From: Shewanella maritima
Lineage (GTDB): Bacteria; Pseudomonadota; Gammaproteobacteria; Enterobacterales; Shewanellaceae
Reading direction: 5' to 3'
Assembly (NCBI RefSeq): GCF_004295345.1
Contig: NZ_CP036200.1
Coordinates: forward strand, 3,659,501-3,723,500
Length of the DNA stretch: 64,000 bases
Part shown: one piece after another, positions 1,504 through 6,730 of the stretch
Numbering within the stretch: position 1 is the first letter of the stretch
How the letters are laid out: the number at the start of each line of letters is the position of its first letter
Notes under the pieces: generated by a model
The model's input: only the letters and a program-made list of their open reading frames with translations
What the model was told of the DNA's origin: nothing
The model's database searches: none
Program-made: the position numbers and the translations under genes

Positions 1504-2592
1504 ATGCAGCAAGATACCATCAACAATATCCACATCACTGGCGAGAAGGTGTTATCAACACCAGCGCAGTTAAAGCAAGAATTACCTTTAAGCGCCCACG
1601 CTCAGCAGTATATTTTGGATGCCCGTAAAACTGTGGCGGATATTGTGCATAAGCGTGATAATCGCGTGCTTGTTGTGACAGGCCCATGCTCAATTCATGA
1701 TATTGACGCTGCCAAAGAATACGCCCTAAAGCTCAAGAAATTGCACGATGAGTTAAGTGATGACTTCTACATTTTAATGCGAGTCTACTTTGAAAAGCCG
1801 CGCACGACCGTGGGTTGGAAAGGCATGATTAATGACCCAGACATGGATGAGTCATTTGACGTTGAAAAGGGCTTACGTATCGCCCGTGAGCTGATGATTT
1901 GGCTGGCTGAGCTAGAACTCCCTGTCGCCACTGAAGCGCTTGATCCGATCAGCCCGCAGTACATTTCTGAGCTAGTGACCTGGTCAGCAATTGGTGCAAG
2001 AACCACTGAGTCGCAAACTCACCGTGAAATGGCATCGGGTTTATCTATGCCTGTTGGTTTTAAAAATGGCACAGACGGTAAGCTCGATGTGGCAATTAAT
2101 GCGCTTAAATCAGCAGCCAGTAGTCATCGTTTTATGGGAATAAACCAGCAAGGCCAGGTTTGTTTGCTGCAAACTCAAGGTAACCCAGATGGCCATGTGA
2201 TCCTCCGCGGTGGTAAGCAGCCTAATTACGACGCGGCGAGTGTGCATGACTGTGCTGAGCAGTTGCATAATGCCGGCTTGAATGCACGTTTGGTGATTGA
2301 TTGCAGTCATGGCAACTCATCTAAAGATCACACGCGGCAGACATTAGTGTGTGAAGATATTTTCGCGCAAATTGTTGCTGGCAATACCTCTATTATTGGC
2401 GTCATGCTTGAAAGTCATTTAAACGAAGGTAATCAAAGCGCTGATACGCCATCTGAGTTAAAGTATGGTGTGTCTGTTACTGATGCGTGCATTAACTGGC
2501 AGACAACAGAAGCGCTGCTGCGCTCAGGTGCTAAGCAATTAGCTCCAGTGCTACCAACGCGTTTTGACAATAAACAAGTCGTAAATGGTTAA
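1504..2592 (+). CDS. aroF: 3-deoxy-7-phosphoheptulonate synthase, AroF-type (class I alpha)
   Basis: A 362-residue enzyme, close to the roughly 350-356 of the E. coli AroF/AroG/AroH family. It condenses phosphoenolpyruvate with erythrose 4-phosphate, the first step of the shikimate pathway. Visible motifs include VVTGPCSIHD (metal-binding Cys), MRVYFEKPRTTVGWKG (substrate Lys/Arg), SAIGARTTESQTHREMASG, GFKNGTDG, VILRGGKQPNY and DCSHGNSSKDH. The following gene, six bases away, is tyrA. This aroF-tyrA pairing is the one that carries the tyrosine-sensitive isozyme in enteric bacteria, so tyrosine feedback is likely; that is inference from context. The ATG start is chosen because AGGCA precedes it and the following MQQDT start suits the family length. 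Confidence 0.95.
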   Translation: MQQDTINNIHITGEKVLSTPAQLKQELPLSAHAQQYILDARKTVADIVHKRDNRVLVVTGPCSIHDIDAAKEYALKLKKLHDELSDDFYILMRVYFEKPRTTVGWKGMINDPDMDESFDVEKGLRIARELMIWLAELELPVATEALDPISPQYISELVTWSAIGARTTESQTHREMASGLSMPVGFKNGTDGKLDVAINALKSAASSHRFMGINQQGQVCLLQTQGNPDGHVILRGGKQPNYDAASVHDCAEQLHNAGLNARLVIDCSHGNSSKDHTRQTLVCEDIFAQIVAGNTSIIGVMLESHLNEGNQSADTPSELKYGVSVTDACINWQTTEALLRSGAKQLAPVLPTRFDNKQVVNG

Positions 2593-2598
2593 TATTCA

Positions 2599-3738
2599 AT
2601 GAATGAGAAAACAACTGCAGATTTAGAAAAGCTACGCGGCTTGATTGATGGCGTCGATCAGCAACTCTTGCACCTATTGCGCAAACGCCTTGATTTAGTG
2701 GCGCAAGTCGGCGCCGTTAAACATGGCGCTGGTGTACCTATTTACGCACCTCAGCGTGAGGCGGCAATGTTAGCTAAGCGTCGAGAAGAGGCGGCTAACA
2801 TGGATATTTCCCCGCAGCTGATTGAAGATATTCTGCGTCGTTTGATGCGCGAGTCATACCTCAATGAAAAAGACGTTGGCTTTAAGCAGGTTAAGACTGA
2901 TTTGGGGCACATCGTGGTGGTCGGCGGTCAAGGGCAACTTGGGCAATTATTTACCCAAATGCTGACCTTATCCGGCTATCAAGTTAAAACCTTGGATAAA
3001 GACGATTGGCAGCGCGCACCTGAACTATTCGATGGCGCTGGTATGGTGCTAGTTACTGTACCGATTAAGGTCACTTGCGACGTTATTCGCAACCAATTAG
3101 GTCAGCTACCTGAAACTTGTATTCTCGCCGATTTAACCTCGATTAAAGATGAGCCGCTCAATGCGATGCTTGATGCCCACAAAGGCCCTGTAGTCGGTCT
3201 CCACCCTATGTTTGGCCCTGATGTAGGCAGTTTGGCAAAACAGGTAGTAGTGGTATGTCATGGGCGCAACGCCGATGCGTATGAGTGGCTAATGGAGCAA
3301 ATCCAAATTTGGGGAGCGAGATTAGTAGTTGCCGATGCTAAAGAACATGATAACGCCATGCAACTGGTTCAGGCTATGCGCCACTTCTCAAGCTTTGTCT
3401 ACGGTCTTAATCTGTGTCGCGAGCAAGCGGATATTGACAAGTTGTTGCAGTTTAGCTCGCCGATTTATCGTTTAGAGTTGGCAATGGTCGGGCGCTTGTT
3501 TGCTCAAGATCCTGAGCTTTACGCCGATATTATCTTTGCACAGCAAGGCAGTTTAACTGCAATTGGAGATTACCTAGAAAATTATCAATCTGCGTTAGAG
3601 CTGTTAAAGTCAGGCAATCGTCAGGCATTTGTTGAGCAATTTAAACAGGTTTCTCAGTGGTTTGGTGATTTTGCGCCGCAGTTCCAAAACGAGAGCCGCG
3701 CAATGTTGCAATCGGTCAACGACATGAAAGCAGGTTAA
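2599..3738 (+). CDS. tyrA: Bifunctional chorismate mutase / prephenate dehydrogenase
   Basis: A 379-residue protein, close to E. coli TyrA (373). Residues 1-90 form the AroQ-type chorismate mutase helix bundle ([23 protein letters not shown], with conserved Arg and Lys). From about residue 100 a Rossmann dinucleotide-binding fold begins with [13 protein letters not shown], followed by the dehydrogenase motifs LADLTSIK and GLHPMFGPD. It converts chorismate to prephenate and then, with NAD+, to 4-hydroxyphenylpyruvate for tyrosine synthesis. It lies six bases after aroF and is surely co-transcribed. The gene order (aroF-tyrA convergent with pheA) matches that of E. coli, but here an extra small membrane-protein gene and a MITE-like element separate tyrA from pheA. 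Confidence 0.97.
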
Positions 3739-4114: not shown

Positions 4115-4459
4115 ATGTCGATAGCTACGCCGCCAGCTTGCTCGCAAGCACTTGTTGAAGATAAGTCATTAGGCTATATGCTTTATGGCTTGATGAGCGC
4201 ATTTCCGCTGTTTTTTATTCCTGTATTAGTTAGCCTTTGGCTTAATCTTATTCAAAAGAATGTTCAGCCCAACTCTTTGCTCGGCAGTCATTTGCGCTGG
4301 CAAAAGTTCAGTATTATTGGATTGGCGCTCGCAGTATTAATGGGTTACCTGTCTGCAGGAATGTGGTTTAGCCTGCCTATCTTGTTAACGGGTATTGTTT
4401 GGTTTTGCTACCGGGTATTTAAAGGATGGCTCAGCTTAAATGATGGCATTAGGTTGTAG
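4115..4459 (+). CDS. Small inner-membrane protein of unknown function
   Basis: A 114-residue protein with a short polar N-terminus and about three hydrophobic segments (residues roughly 19-42, 66-86 and 87-105). Between the first two is the motif SHLRWQ, and near the end YRVFKGWLSLNDG. This pattern of SHxRWQ followed by YRxxKGWLxLxDG recalls small conserved membrane proteins (DUF4870-like) found in many proteobacteria, but no function is known to me. GGAGAATATCC lies just before the ATG. It is a single-gene unit: a MITE-like element is upstream, and the terminator shared with pheA is downstream. Confidence 0.75.
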   Translation: MSIATPPACSQALVEDKSLGYMLYGLMSAFPLFFIPVLVSLWLNLIQKNVQPNSLLGSHLRWQKFSIIGLALAVLMGYLSAGMWFSLPILLTGIVWFCYRVFKGWLSLNDGIRL

Positions 4460-4522: not shown

Positions 4523-6454
4523 TTAGCTAGCTAACACGCGTTGCAATAGCTGAGGCTGGTCTTGCTGACGATCTAGCATGACACCATTTAAACCAAGTTG
4601 CTTGATGGCGCGCGCCTGCTGTTCAACCGTTTCAACTGTAGCAGTTTGAGTCAGGTTAACTAGCACTGGCAAGTGAGTCAGTTGCTTAACTTCAATCAGA
4701 CTGCTTAGGTCTAGGCTGAGTTTTTGCGCTTCATTGAGACCGCGAATACCTGAGTCAACAAGACCTATTTGTTGATTGCCTTGATTCAAAATAACATCGG
4801 CACTGTTTAGCCACTGCTCAAGGCTAGCGTTGTTGTGTCTGTCAATCAGCACTGGTGTGCTAAGCGCTCCCGCGGCATTTAATAGCTCAGCATCGAACAT
4901 CGACTTACCTTGCAATAGCAAACCGTCGCTAAGTTTCGCTGCAACAGGCAGCTCAACACTGTGCTCAACAGGTAAGATGCAGGCAAGGCCAGCAAGGTTG
5001 ATTTGTTTGACACAATCGCTAACTTGCTGCTCGTTTGATATCAAATCGGCATTATTAAGTACAATCGCTTCGAAGCCTGCTTCTTTTGCTTCTCGTGCTT
5101 GGGTTGCGACTTCAGTGTTGTTATCTGTGTAGTCTAAATGCTTAATGGTATTTAGCGCAGCGCCGCCAATTTGCATCATTCCAAGTTGCACAACAGTATC
5201 TTTATCTTTAAATGATTTGGCGTGCTTAGGGTTATGGCCGAGTTGGTTAGATGCCACTTTAGAGCTATCTGGCTCAATTAGTAGTTGTGATTGTGACAAT
5301 TGCGTCGGTTTTACCGTTTCACACGGGTAGCAGCCTAAGACCTTAATAAAACGCGTTTGGCGTTCTAGCTCGTTGATAGCTTGCTGGACATTATCTGTTG
5401 CTAAATTTCCGTCGATATCAAGATAGAACATTTCTTCCCAAGGTGTACCTGGAATAGGGCGCGACTCAAGCTTACTCATATTGAGGTTATGCTCTTTGAG
5501 CACAAGCAAGGCCTCAACCAGTGCGCCAGGCTTATGACCTGTTGCCATAATCAGCGTGGTCTTTGCTGGCAGCTGTGATGGTACATCAACCGCCTTGCGA
5601 GCTACCACGATAAAGCGGCTCTGGTTAATTTTTTGATTAGCGAGATCTTTGTCAATTGCGCTTAAGCCGTAAAGGGCGCCGCCTTCAGCGCTGCCTATCG
5701 CTGCAACATTGAGACTTCCACTATCTATGACTTTTTGCATGGCTTCAGCACTGCTTGAGCAATACTCCAATTTGATGTGCGGGTATTGGCTTAGGTAACG
5801 ACTGCATTGGCTAATCGGCTGTGGATGGGCGTACAAAGTGGTGATGTTATCAACACTGCTGCCGCTGCTCGCGAGCATACAATGACCGACTTCGATGGTG
5901 GTTTCACCTACAATTGATAACGACGTGTGCTGCAGCACGTCATACACTTCATTGATTGAGCCGGAAGATGTGTTCTCAATCGGCAAAAAGCCGTAATCGG
6001 CATGGCCTGATTCTACTGCTGTGATGATGTCATCAAAGTTTGGACAACCTAAGTCTTGCATCTCAACCTGACGGCGCTCACAGTATCGATTCGCTGCCAA
6101 ATATGAATAAGAGCCACGCGCGCCCAAATACGCCACAGTGTATCGCGTCTTTTGGGTTTCAGGGTTTGCTTTGGTGTGCAGGTAGGCTTGTTGATTGAGC
6201 ACTGAGTCTTCAATGATGCTCTGGTACAGTGAAATCACATAGTGAGCGTCTAAGCCTTGCTCACGCCCTTGATGAACTAAGCGCTCAAGCAGTTCTTTCT
6301 CTCTTTGGGTATCACGAATTGGGCGCACATCGACTTCTTTTGAGCGAGCAACGTCTAGGCTCAAAGCTCGTCTTTTTGCTAATAGGCCTAGTAGTTCTTT
6401 ATCAAGATGAGTAATTTGCTCTCGGGTGTCATTTAACGCTGGTGGTTTTTGCAT
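4523..6454 (-). CDS. pheA: Chorismate mutase / prephenate dehydratase with a C-terminal DAHP-synthase-like domain
   Basis: The 643-residue product is far longer than E. coli PheA (386). Residues 1-95 are an AroQ chorismate mutase, about 104-285 the prephenate dehydratase, and about 297-375 the ACT domain with GALV (310-313) and ESRP (330-333), the phenylalanine-binding motifs. The usual catalytic Thr-Arg-Phe is Ser-Arg-Phe here (279-281). After a linker, residues about 420-643 resemble a class I-beta DAHP synthase/KDO8P synthase barrel (SGIR at 568-571, THLPVLV, QLGLNGVM) but the metal-binding DPSH is replaced by NLTQ (600-603) and the VLLKR lysine by VLIDR (535-539), so this domain is probably not catalytic. 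The start at 6454 (MQKPPALNDTREQ) is chosen by similarity to PheA N-termini; an upstream ATG at 6475 is possible. Leader peptide and attenuator precede it. Confidence 0.93.
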   Translation of the reverse strand: MQKPPALNDTREQITHLDKELLGLLAKRRALSLDVARSKEVDVRPIRDTQREKELLERLVHQGREQGLDAHYVISLYQSIIEDSVLNQQAYLHTKANPETQKTRYTVAYLGARGSYSYLAANRYCERRQVEMQDLGCPNFDDIITAVESGHADYGFLPIENTSSGSINEVYDVLQHTSLSIVGETTIEVGHCMLASSGSSVDNITTLYAHPQPISQCSRYLSQYPHIKLEYCSSSAEAMQKVIDSGSLNVAAIGSAEGGALYGLSAIDKDLANQKINQSRFIVVARKAVDVPSQLPAKTTLIMATGHKPGALVEALLVLKEHNLNMSKLESRPIPGTPWEEMFYLDIDGNLATDNVQQAINELERQTRFIKVLGCYPCETVKPTQLSQSQLLIEPDSSKVASNQLGHNPKHAKSFKDKDTVVQLGMMQIGGAALNTIKHLDYTDNNTEVATQAREAKEAGFEAIVLNNADLISNEQQVSDCVKQINLAGLACILPVEHSVELPVAAKLSDGLLLQGKSMFDAELLNAAGALSTPVLIDRHNNASLEQWLNSADVILNQGNQQIGLVDSGIRGLNEAQKLSLDLSSLIEVKQLTHLPVLVNLTQTATVETVEQQARAIKQLGLNGVMLDRQQDQPQLLQRVLAS

Positions 6455-6527
6455 ATTGTTGGCCCAACTTCTCATGCTTGTGCATGTTTAAAAATTTAAC
6501 GATTAACGAGATAGAAAAGAGTGAAAC

Positions 6528-6551
6528 AAAAAAGCCTCCCGGTTGGGAGGC
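6528..6551 (-). terminator. pheA attenuator (terminator hairpin)
   Basis: On the minus strand the stem GCCTCCC / GGGAGGC is followed by six T. It sits between the pheL stop and pheA. The 5' arm (CTCCCAAC, 6542-6549) is also perfectly complementary to GTTGGGAG inside the end of pheL (6586-6593), giving the competing antiterminator expected of a translation-coupled attenuator. Confidence 0.9.
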
Positions 6552-6570
6552 TCAATTTTCACTTTCGTTT

Positions 6571-6639
6571 TTACACAGAAAATCGACTCCCAACTTGGGT
6601 GTGCGTAAAAAAGAAAGTAAAAAACAAATTTGCTGTCAT
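6571..6639 (-). CDS. pheL: Phenylalanine leader peptide PheL
   Basis: A 22-codon open frame, too short for normal gene calling, reading MTANLFFTFFFTHTQVGSRF-SV. Five of six consecutive residues (6-11) are Phe, and there are six Phe in all. It lies between a good promoter and the attenuator hairpin, in the same place as pheL in E. coli. By the classic mechanism, ribosome stalling at the Phe codons when charged tRNA-Phe is scarce would favour the antiterminator and let transcription reach pheA. The ribosome-binding site is weak (GAACGATAG before the ATG). The call rests on residue composition plus the exact complementarity between its 3' end and the terminator arm. Confidence 0.9.
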   Translation of the reverse strand: MTANLFFTFFFTHTQVGSRFSV

Positions 6640-6730
6640 CTATCGTTCGTCATTTTGTTTGTTATCACTAATGGCACAGTCAGCGAACTCAGGACGTTAA
6701 AAACGACTCGGTGATCACGCTGCCTAATTA

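Follow-up and report, generated by a model that had tools for sequence, protein, structure and literature searches.

Introduction

In Shewanella oneidensis, the aroQ-pheA fusion has been called 'bizarre', and the extra segment that it carries was described, in the part of that account available to us, as an aroAI-beta pseudogene of unknown origin (Song et al. 2005, PMC1173090). The identical feature is found in another member of the genus, Shewanella maritima, within a stretch of 64,000 nucleotides (the window; contig NZ_CP036200.1, positions 3,659,501 to 3,723,500) in which pheA lies on the minus strand at 4523..6475. Its product joins chorismate mutase (CM), prephenate dehydratase (PDT) and ACT domains to a C-terminal tail that is homologous to class I-beta 3-deoxy-D-arabino-heptulosonate 7-phosphate (DAHP) synthase. 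Whereas the earlier account, as far as its available text extends, concerned one species and a pseudogene, the tail is here found to be kept in 129 Shewanella genomes, to be under purifying selection and to be linked to intact proteins with four domains. The reading favored here, to which a probability of about 0.6 is attached, is that the tail is an inactive barrel inherited from a four-domain ancestor and serving a non-catalytic role in Shewanella.

Several described systems resemble parts of this arrangement. The class I-beta DAHP synthases of known structure include those of Thermotoga maritima (1rzm, 3pg8) and Pyrococcus furiosus (1zco) and the CM-DAHP synthases of Listeria and Geobacillus (3nvt, 5j6f), from which the Shewanella tail differs in having no metal ligands, in retaining the intact residue in only 3 of 25 active-site columns, and in being fused behind an ACT domain. 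The P-protein of Escherichia coli (PheA, 386 aa, L154) shares the CM-PDT-ACT core and an upstream phenylalanine leader, but stops after ACT and has no barrel. Closest in design are CM-PDT-ACT-DAHP synthase proteins of Planctomycetes, Ignavibacteria/Melioribacteraceae, Deltaproteobacteria, Myxococcales, Dadabacteria and others, which have the same domain order and a similar length (667-720 aa), yet whose DAHP synthase site is complete in the 15 that were aligned (chosen as intact), unlike that of Shewanella. Finally, in the CM-DAHP synthase complexes of Mycobacterium tuberculosis (PMC10520331) and Corynebacterium glutamicum (PMC7762937), the synthase controls the mutase by contact, which, as far as the excerpts available describe it, resembles the role proposed here for the Shewanella barrel. 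Those complexes, according to the same excerpts, are built from separate chains, an AroQ-delta mutase and an active DAHP synthase. The synthase of both species is of the class II type.

The tail itself was thus already known, and the intact four-domain relatives and the series of decaying forms would, on sequence comparison, be the addition made here. No report of genus-wide conservation, of an intact four-domain class or of a decay series was found in the open-licence literature, which omits most subscription journals. Apart from PMC1173090, the same literature yielded no paper on CM-PDT-DAHP synthase fusions, which leaves their absence unproven; two papers that mention CM-PDT (PMC2700814, PMC11237513) describe no such fusion in the portions available.

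An apparently inactive class I-beta barrel at the end of PheA

Counted from the first ATG, the pheA open reading frame specifies 650 aa, and a form of the same product that begins at Met8 (start codon 6452-6454) is present in the protein database as P0003, with the 643 residues that had been counted in an initial annotation made from the letters alone. That annotation placed a degenerate DAHP-synthase-like domain at 4523-5207, coordinates that suit the barrel (residues 426-650, 4526..5200, minus strand); with the linker included, the extra part covers 4523-5311. The proposed homology is borne out at several levels. On the whole protein, Pfam places DAHP_synth_1 at residues 504-635 (44.3 bits against a cut-off of 25.5, E 1.4e-11), and the isolated tail matches PF00793 with an E-value of 2.2e-12. 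The NCBIfam class I-beta model TIGR01361 covers residues 418-636 (E 2.6e-23), its 82.7 bits lying far below the model cut-off of 267.75, and scores 87 bits (E 1.2e-24) on the isolated tail, again under that equivalog cut-off. The ten solved chains that the tail matches by sequence all belong to the class I-beta DAHP synthases, the best of them with an E-value of 5.6e-18, and the landmark motifs quoted in the annotation can be read in the translation. Comparison with profiles and solved chains confirms a homology far beyond chance. The predicted models, in turn, show a full (beta/alpha)8 TIM barrel rather than another fold, with eight strands at residues 442-448, 470-474, 498-503, 518-521, 542-545, 570-574, 604-607 and 631-634.

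The active site of this barrel has been erased. Class I-beta enzymes bind their metal through C, H, E and D and contact phosphoenolpyruvate (PEP) through R, K, R, K and R, according to the portion consulted of PMC6362186. In the alignment, the window's PheA has D, Q and D at the first three ligand positions and a gap at the fourth, and the residues that bind PEP and erythrose 4-phosphate (GGxFKPRT, GAR, the K of LLKR and the R of CER) are not retained; in the numbering of P0006, K490 is replaced by D, R555 by K, K576 by D and R606 by S. The changes already noted from the letters, LLKR to LIDR, DPSH to NLTQ and the absence of GPC, are all present, and the other two metal ligands are lost as well. 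Across 48 tails of the genus, a mean of 0.08 of the 4 ligands remains. L042 (frameshift) and L061, L065 and L066 (duplicates) had been dropped from the alignment in which 3 of the 25 active-site columns count as retained. Because metal ligands, PEP positions and most active-site columns have changed, catalysis by the known DAHP synthase mechanism appears very unlikely.

Retention and selection in Shewanella

A single match running from the CM domain to residue 603 or further was obtained in 127 of 129 genomes of the genus. In one of the remaining two, G530, the match ends at 404, yet its 674-aa frame includes the tail; in the other, G003, pheA (L042) is split by an apparent frameshift within the PDT part, and the second piece extends to 636. 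Tail sequence is therefore present in 129 of 129 genomes, although matches end at 603-613 in four, with tails shortened in those that were read. The shortened tails L044 (G001), L236 (G486) and L237 (G539) retain the M..N, GN and LP stretches of the barrel. Presence of the tail across Alteromonadales had been put forward in the initial annotation as a check: the tail is kept throughout the genus, while elsewhere in the order families differ in how far it has decayed, or do without it.

Nucleotide differences between close relatives fall mainly at third codon positions. The ratio of nonsynonymous to synonymous rates (dN/dS), pooled over eight disjoint close pairs, comes to 0.017 in the core, 0.151 in the linker and 0.076 in the tail, where 357.5 synonymous and 121.5 nonsynonymous changes were counted over 1704 codons; these are simple Nei-Gojobori counts from few pairs, chosen greedily as disjoint with a core dS of 0.05-1.0. 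Family f9 (Agarivorans, Aliagarivorans, Alginatibacterium) gives a still lower tail value of 0.020 (3 pairs). The intact proteins of family f14 yielded no pair within these limits, and estimates from distant GC-rich species pairs, which gave odd values near 1 through saturation, were discarded. Retention in every genome and a tail ratio of 0.076 speak against a pseudogene segment, and the tail is under purifying selection. The initial annotation's 'probably a pseudoenzyme' is strengthened accordingly, the barrel being predicted to fold, stripped of catalytic residues and selectively maintained.

TIM barrels generally use the catalytic face for function and the opposite one for stability. Among 17 intact four-domain barrels, the catalytic-face loops are the least variable class (entropy 0.28, against 0.73 for opposite-face loops), whereas the 48 tails of the genus show the opposite ranking (1.87 against 0.92, p 0.00017), as do those of f9 (0.85 against 0.33) and f25 (1.05 against 0.36); since the groups differ in depth, entropies are compared only by their order within a group. 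The most conserved tail residues of the genus include M526, H601, P603, P541, N567, G566, G536, G467 and R546. With the catalytic face now the variable side, the pattern fits a domain retained for its fold and not for its pocket.

Intact and half-decayed relatives

When the tail was compared with 5.8 billion proteins, 28 matches were returned, many of them proteins of 654-720 aa with CM, PDT and DAHP synthase domains, and with Planctomycetes, Ignavibacteriaceae and Dadabacteria among the names. A second search, seeded by one four-domain protein, scored 7998 candidates, 7995 of them below E 1e-3, and all three Pfam families were found in 115 of the best 120 of the 7998. The 15 four-domain proteins that were aligned, picked by eye as intact, keep all four metal ligands, and 13 of them keep all 25 active-site columns. 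From the first search, P0007 and P0023 are four-domain proteins with partly degenerate DAHP synthase domains; because they branch with intact proteins from other phyla, decay of this domain may have happened more than once. Proteins P0025 (571 aa) and P0029 (598 aa) consist of PDT, ACT and DAHP synthase without CM, and their barrels branch with stand-alone enzymes, indicating a separate fusion.

A scan of genome contigs named Melioribacter, Ignavibacteriae, Myxococcales and Planctomycetota among the matches listed, which were mostly stand-alone or adjacent genes and included none of the order's intact fusions by name. Five matches of about 3 kb (L161, L164, L165, L169, L186) lie in Deltaproteobacteria and Syntrophales-type contigs. 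Their span suggests neighboring pheA and class I-beta DAHP synthase genes rather than one gene, a possible forerunner of the fusion.

Within the order that contains both Shewanella and E. coli, all grades of preservation can be found. Intact four-domain copies occur in f14 (L041 in G048, L133 in G074) and f15 (L075 in G110), beside separate DAHP synthases. The fused barrel of L036 (G054, f20) is nearly intact, with 2 of 4 metal ligands, f9 tails keep 0-1 of 4, and decay is strong in the genus Shewanella, Ferrimonas (L072), f10, f12, f25, L076 (f20) and L128 (f14). The eroded tails L128 (G060, 25.4 bits) and L130 (G109, -1.1 bits) are hardly seen as DAHP synthase by profiles. Tail-less PheA, among the matches listed, occurs in further families of the order and also beside tailed PheA within f15, f20 and f25. 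In the Agarivorans group of f9 (P0150-P0154), the half-decayed barrel is conserved, its altered pocket is constant and dN/dS is very low. Four of these five proteins carry source names, three '3-deoxy-7-phosphoheptulonate synthase' and one 'chorismate mutase'; the synthase name is probably wrong for activity.

Ancestry of the fusion

In a tree of 65 barrels, the fused barrels fall on one side of a branch with support of 96/91, from a bootstrap that had not settled. That side holds 18 intact barrels from other phyla, three intact and six half-decayed ones from the order and two degenerate ones from elsewhere; the other holds 32 stand-alone enzymes and four other fusions. Four Shewanella tails, when added, join the fused side, the stand-alone side having support of 97/95. 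In a contest between fused and stand-alone profiles, the fused profile is the better one for 12 of 12 tails in f9, 7 of 7 in f25, 2 of 2 in f20 and 1 of 1 in f10.

The PheA core leads in the same direction. Against a Planctomycetes four-domain protein, in a comparison of 151 genomes of the class, the window's PheA scores 458 bits and the tail-less PheA of G040 scores 379 bits (47% identity), while the next-best PheA from outside the order reaches 190 bits among the matches listed. In trees, the core groups with the four-domain proteins and is split from upper-gamma PheA with support of 100/100. In a 52-row tree of the core, computed under a mixture model and rooted on upper-gamma PheA, the PheA of the order forms a clade (99/92), within which the intact f14 proteins branch first, followed by the pair of L075 (intact) and L091 (tail-less) and by the rest, including E. 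coli (100/97); the last split is less certain (86/82), and the tail-less E. coli PheA is nested among tailed ones. Approximately unbiased (AU) tests rejected both the union of all tail-less rows in one clade (p 0.003) and the union of all tailed rows of the order (p 0.0004), for groups named after this tree had been seen. Taken together, the trees, profiles and AU tests favor one ancestral fusion, which would have been followed by several losses of the domain, including that of E. coli. Repeated exchange of tailed genes between lineages is conceivable as well.

A proposed history and its rivals

The account preferred here begins with an ancestral CM-PDT-ACT-DAHP synthase enzyme that would have joined the first shikimate reaction to the two reactions of the phenylalanine branch. 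The DAHP synthase site would then have been lost in many lineages of the order; a plausible reason is that separate DAHP synthase isozymes took care of this step. The enterics and some others would have dropped the barrel entirely, whereas Shewanella would have retained it, where the barrel would most likely now serve the CM-PDT enzyme non-catalytically, as a scaffold or as an allosteric domain. The initial annotation had suggested an allosteric or assembly domain that talks to AroF, which may be one form of such a role. The direction of change and the descent of E. coli PheA by loss are put forward conditionally, and the present role most cautiously of all. A role in assembly or stability is a real possibility; an entrenched relic with no benefit of its own is doubtful, a specific allosteric signal is unlikely and some other role is improbable. 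Only tentatively can the parts be combined into the fullest version of the account, in which E. coli PheA would be the stripped remnant of a single-chain entry-plus-branch enzyme under one ACT control and the dead barrel would survive as an allosteric or assembly domain in Shewanella and Agarivorans.

As to the cause of decay, the S. maritima genome has three genes for full-length DAHP synthases of AroF/G/H size, including that at 1504-2592 in the window, and a KdsA-sized match, the class I-alpha, I-beta and KdsA labels used here being assigned from length, span and score in a PF00793 search. Among 20 genomes searched in this way, decay is strong in every one of the five that combine a tail with three I-alpha-sized enzymes (G000, G044, G046, G059, G065), and a partly decayed tail is found in four of five tailed f9/f20 genomes with one such enzyme (G043, G195, G125, G054). 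Redundancy with separate isozymes is thus, from these gene counts, a plausible cause.

A number of observations weigh against this account. Isozyme number and decay do not always correspond: G145 (88% complete), the fifth of the f9/f20 genomes, combines one I-alpha enzyme with a strongly decayed tail, as does G060, which also has a stand-alone I-beta match, and in G110 an intact fused domain stands beside two I-alpha-sized enzymes and one stand-alone I-beta enzyme. The Shewanella branch of the barrel tree has a length of 1.75, so that attraction to other decayed tails is possible, and in the profile contest the fused profile is better for only 23 of 48 tails of the genus, for none of four in f12, and neither for the single Ferrimonas tail (0 of 1) nor for L128. 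The 52-row core tree was built without L128, L130, L131, L132, L134 and most near-duplicates, and a first core tree with more long-branched rows had a weak backbone, with L128, L131, L132 and L134 near the base. The tail has been lost in sister lineages, which marks the barrel as dispensable, and in f25 its dN/dS of 0.43 (2 pairs) is near relaxed. The whole-protein model, finally, has a predicted template modeling score (pTM) of only 0.64, and packing between the domains is therefore not predicted.

Some of these observations are what would be expected of a vestigial domain, a decaying pseudogene segment whose deletion has simply yet to happen, as Song et al. had it. The erased site, a tail that changes faster than the core (0.076 against 0.017), its repeated absence from sister lineages, the near-relaxed f25 tails and the four genomes with matches ending at 603-613 all fit such a segment, but it is a doubtful explanation for a tail that is predicted to form a full barrel and that every genome of the genus retains, under a constraint measured over 1704 codons in eight pairs and tighter still in f9. 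In a variant that is a serious rival, the barrel may be kept only since the rest of PheA came to need it for folding. The separate acquisition of tails by Shewanella and other families from a stand-alone I-beta DAHP synthase, with an E. coli PheA that was never fused, is unlikely. It gains from the profile contest, which leaves Shewanella tails untied to fused barrels, from the 'unknown origin' of the available 2005 text and from the stand-alone I-beta enzymes that the order contains (L148-L153); it would have to accommodate, however, an identical attachment point after ACT with the same linker motif, a lower-gamma PheA core that is itself near the four-domain proteins even where tail-less, intact and half-decayed fusions of sister families that branch with lower-gamma PheA, the uniform preference of f9, f25, f20 and f10 tails for the fused profile, and the rejection of a single tail-less clade, albeit for groups chosen after the tree.

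Two further explanations assign the pocket a continuing use. A tail that serves as a sensor by still binding a small molecule, such as PEP, erythrose 4-phosphate or an aromatic amino acid, is less likely again. In the genus, conservation is strong at R546 (the R of LLKR) and along QGNQQ and THLP, and in f9 the altered pocket is largely invariant at a dN/dS of 0.020. Against this, the PEP-binding K, R and K positions are gone, the catalytic-face loops of the genus are far more variable than those opposite, and most of the best-conserved stretches belong to the face on which the stability of a TIM barrel usually depends. An active enzyme with new chemistry on the old barrel would also be folded and under purifying selection, but is barely credible when it is the catalytic-face loops that vary; nor was a new invariant acid/base cluster noticed, although no systematic search for one was made.

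Gene organization and the phenylalanine leader

The remainder of the fused protein follows the order of the bifunctional AroQ-PheA type (P-protein), with a type II CM, PDT and ACT in succession. The CM (AroQ) domain occupies residues 14-96 (6188..6436, minus strand, as are all parts of pheA; CM_2 at 18-96, E 1.5e-18, and TIGR01797 above its cut-off), and the PDT domain residues 114-294 (5594..6136; Pfam PDT 114-294). The phenylalanine-binding ACT domain (residues ~303-388, 5312..5569) is recognized by the predicted fold of PDT plus ACT, its profile match (PF01842, residues 315-371, E 3e-4) being below cut-off, and PRK10622 gives the protein 532 bits, under its cut-off of 577. The linker (residues ~389-425, 5201..5311) shows low predicted local confidence (pLDDT) at 405-412 and has the highest dN/dS of the three segments.

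Upstream of pheA, on the same strand, lies a phenylalanine leader or attenuator at 6525..6640 (Rfam RF01859, 69.6 bits against a gathering score of 55), within which an open reading frame at 6571..6639 (minus) would encode a leader peptide of 22 aa, six of them Phe. Given this leader and its six-Phe peptide, attenuation by phenylalanine very likely controls the fused gene, as in E. coli, whose counterpart is pheL upstream of pheA. The separate full-length, AroF-like DAHP synthase gene (1504..2592, plus strand; PF00793, 319 bits) is followed by aroQ-tyrA at 2599-3738. Between tyrA and pheA, an open reading frame of 114 aa at 4115-4459 (plus) resembles a membrane protein, for which Pfam gives no match.

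Implications for the family

One bacterial order holds a natural series of the fused barrel, from complete four-domain proteins through half-decayed and inactive yet selected forms to its absence, and this series makes it possible to test directly how an enzyme turns into a domain without catalysis. Database names such as '3-deoxy-7-phosphoheptulonate synthase', given for example in Agarivorans, credit these barrels with an activity that they probably do not have. The intact four-domain proteins are candidates for single-chain feedback between the first and the later steps of the pathway, and the historical view of the E. coli P-protein, a classic of allostery, would change. If the account is true, a first-step enzyme would have become, within a single protein, a regulator of the final branch.
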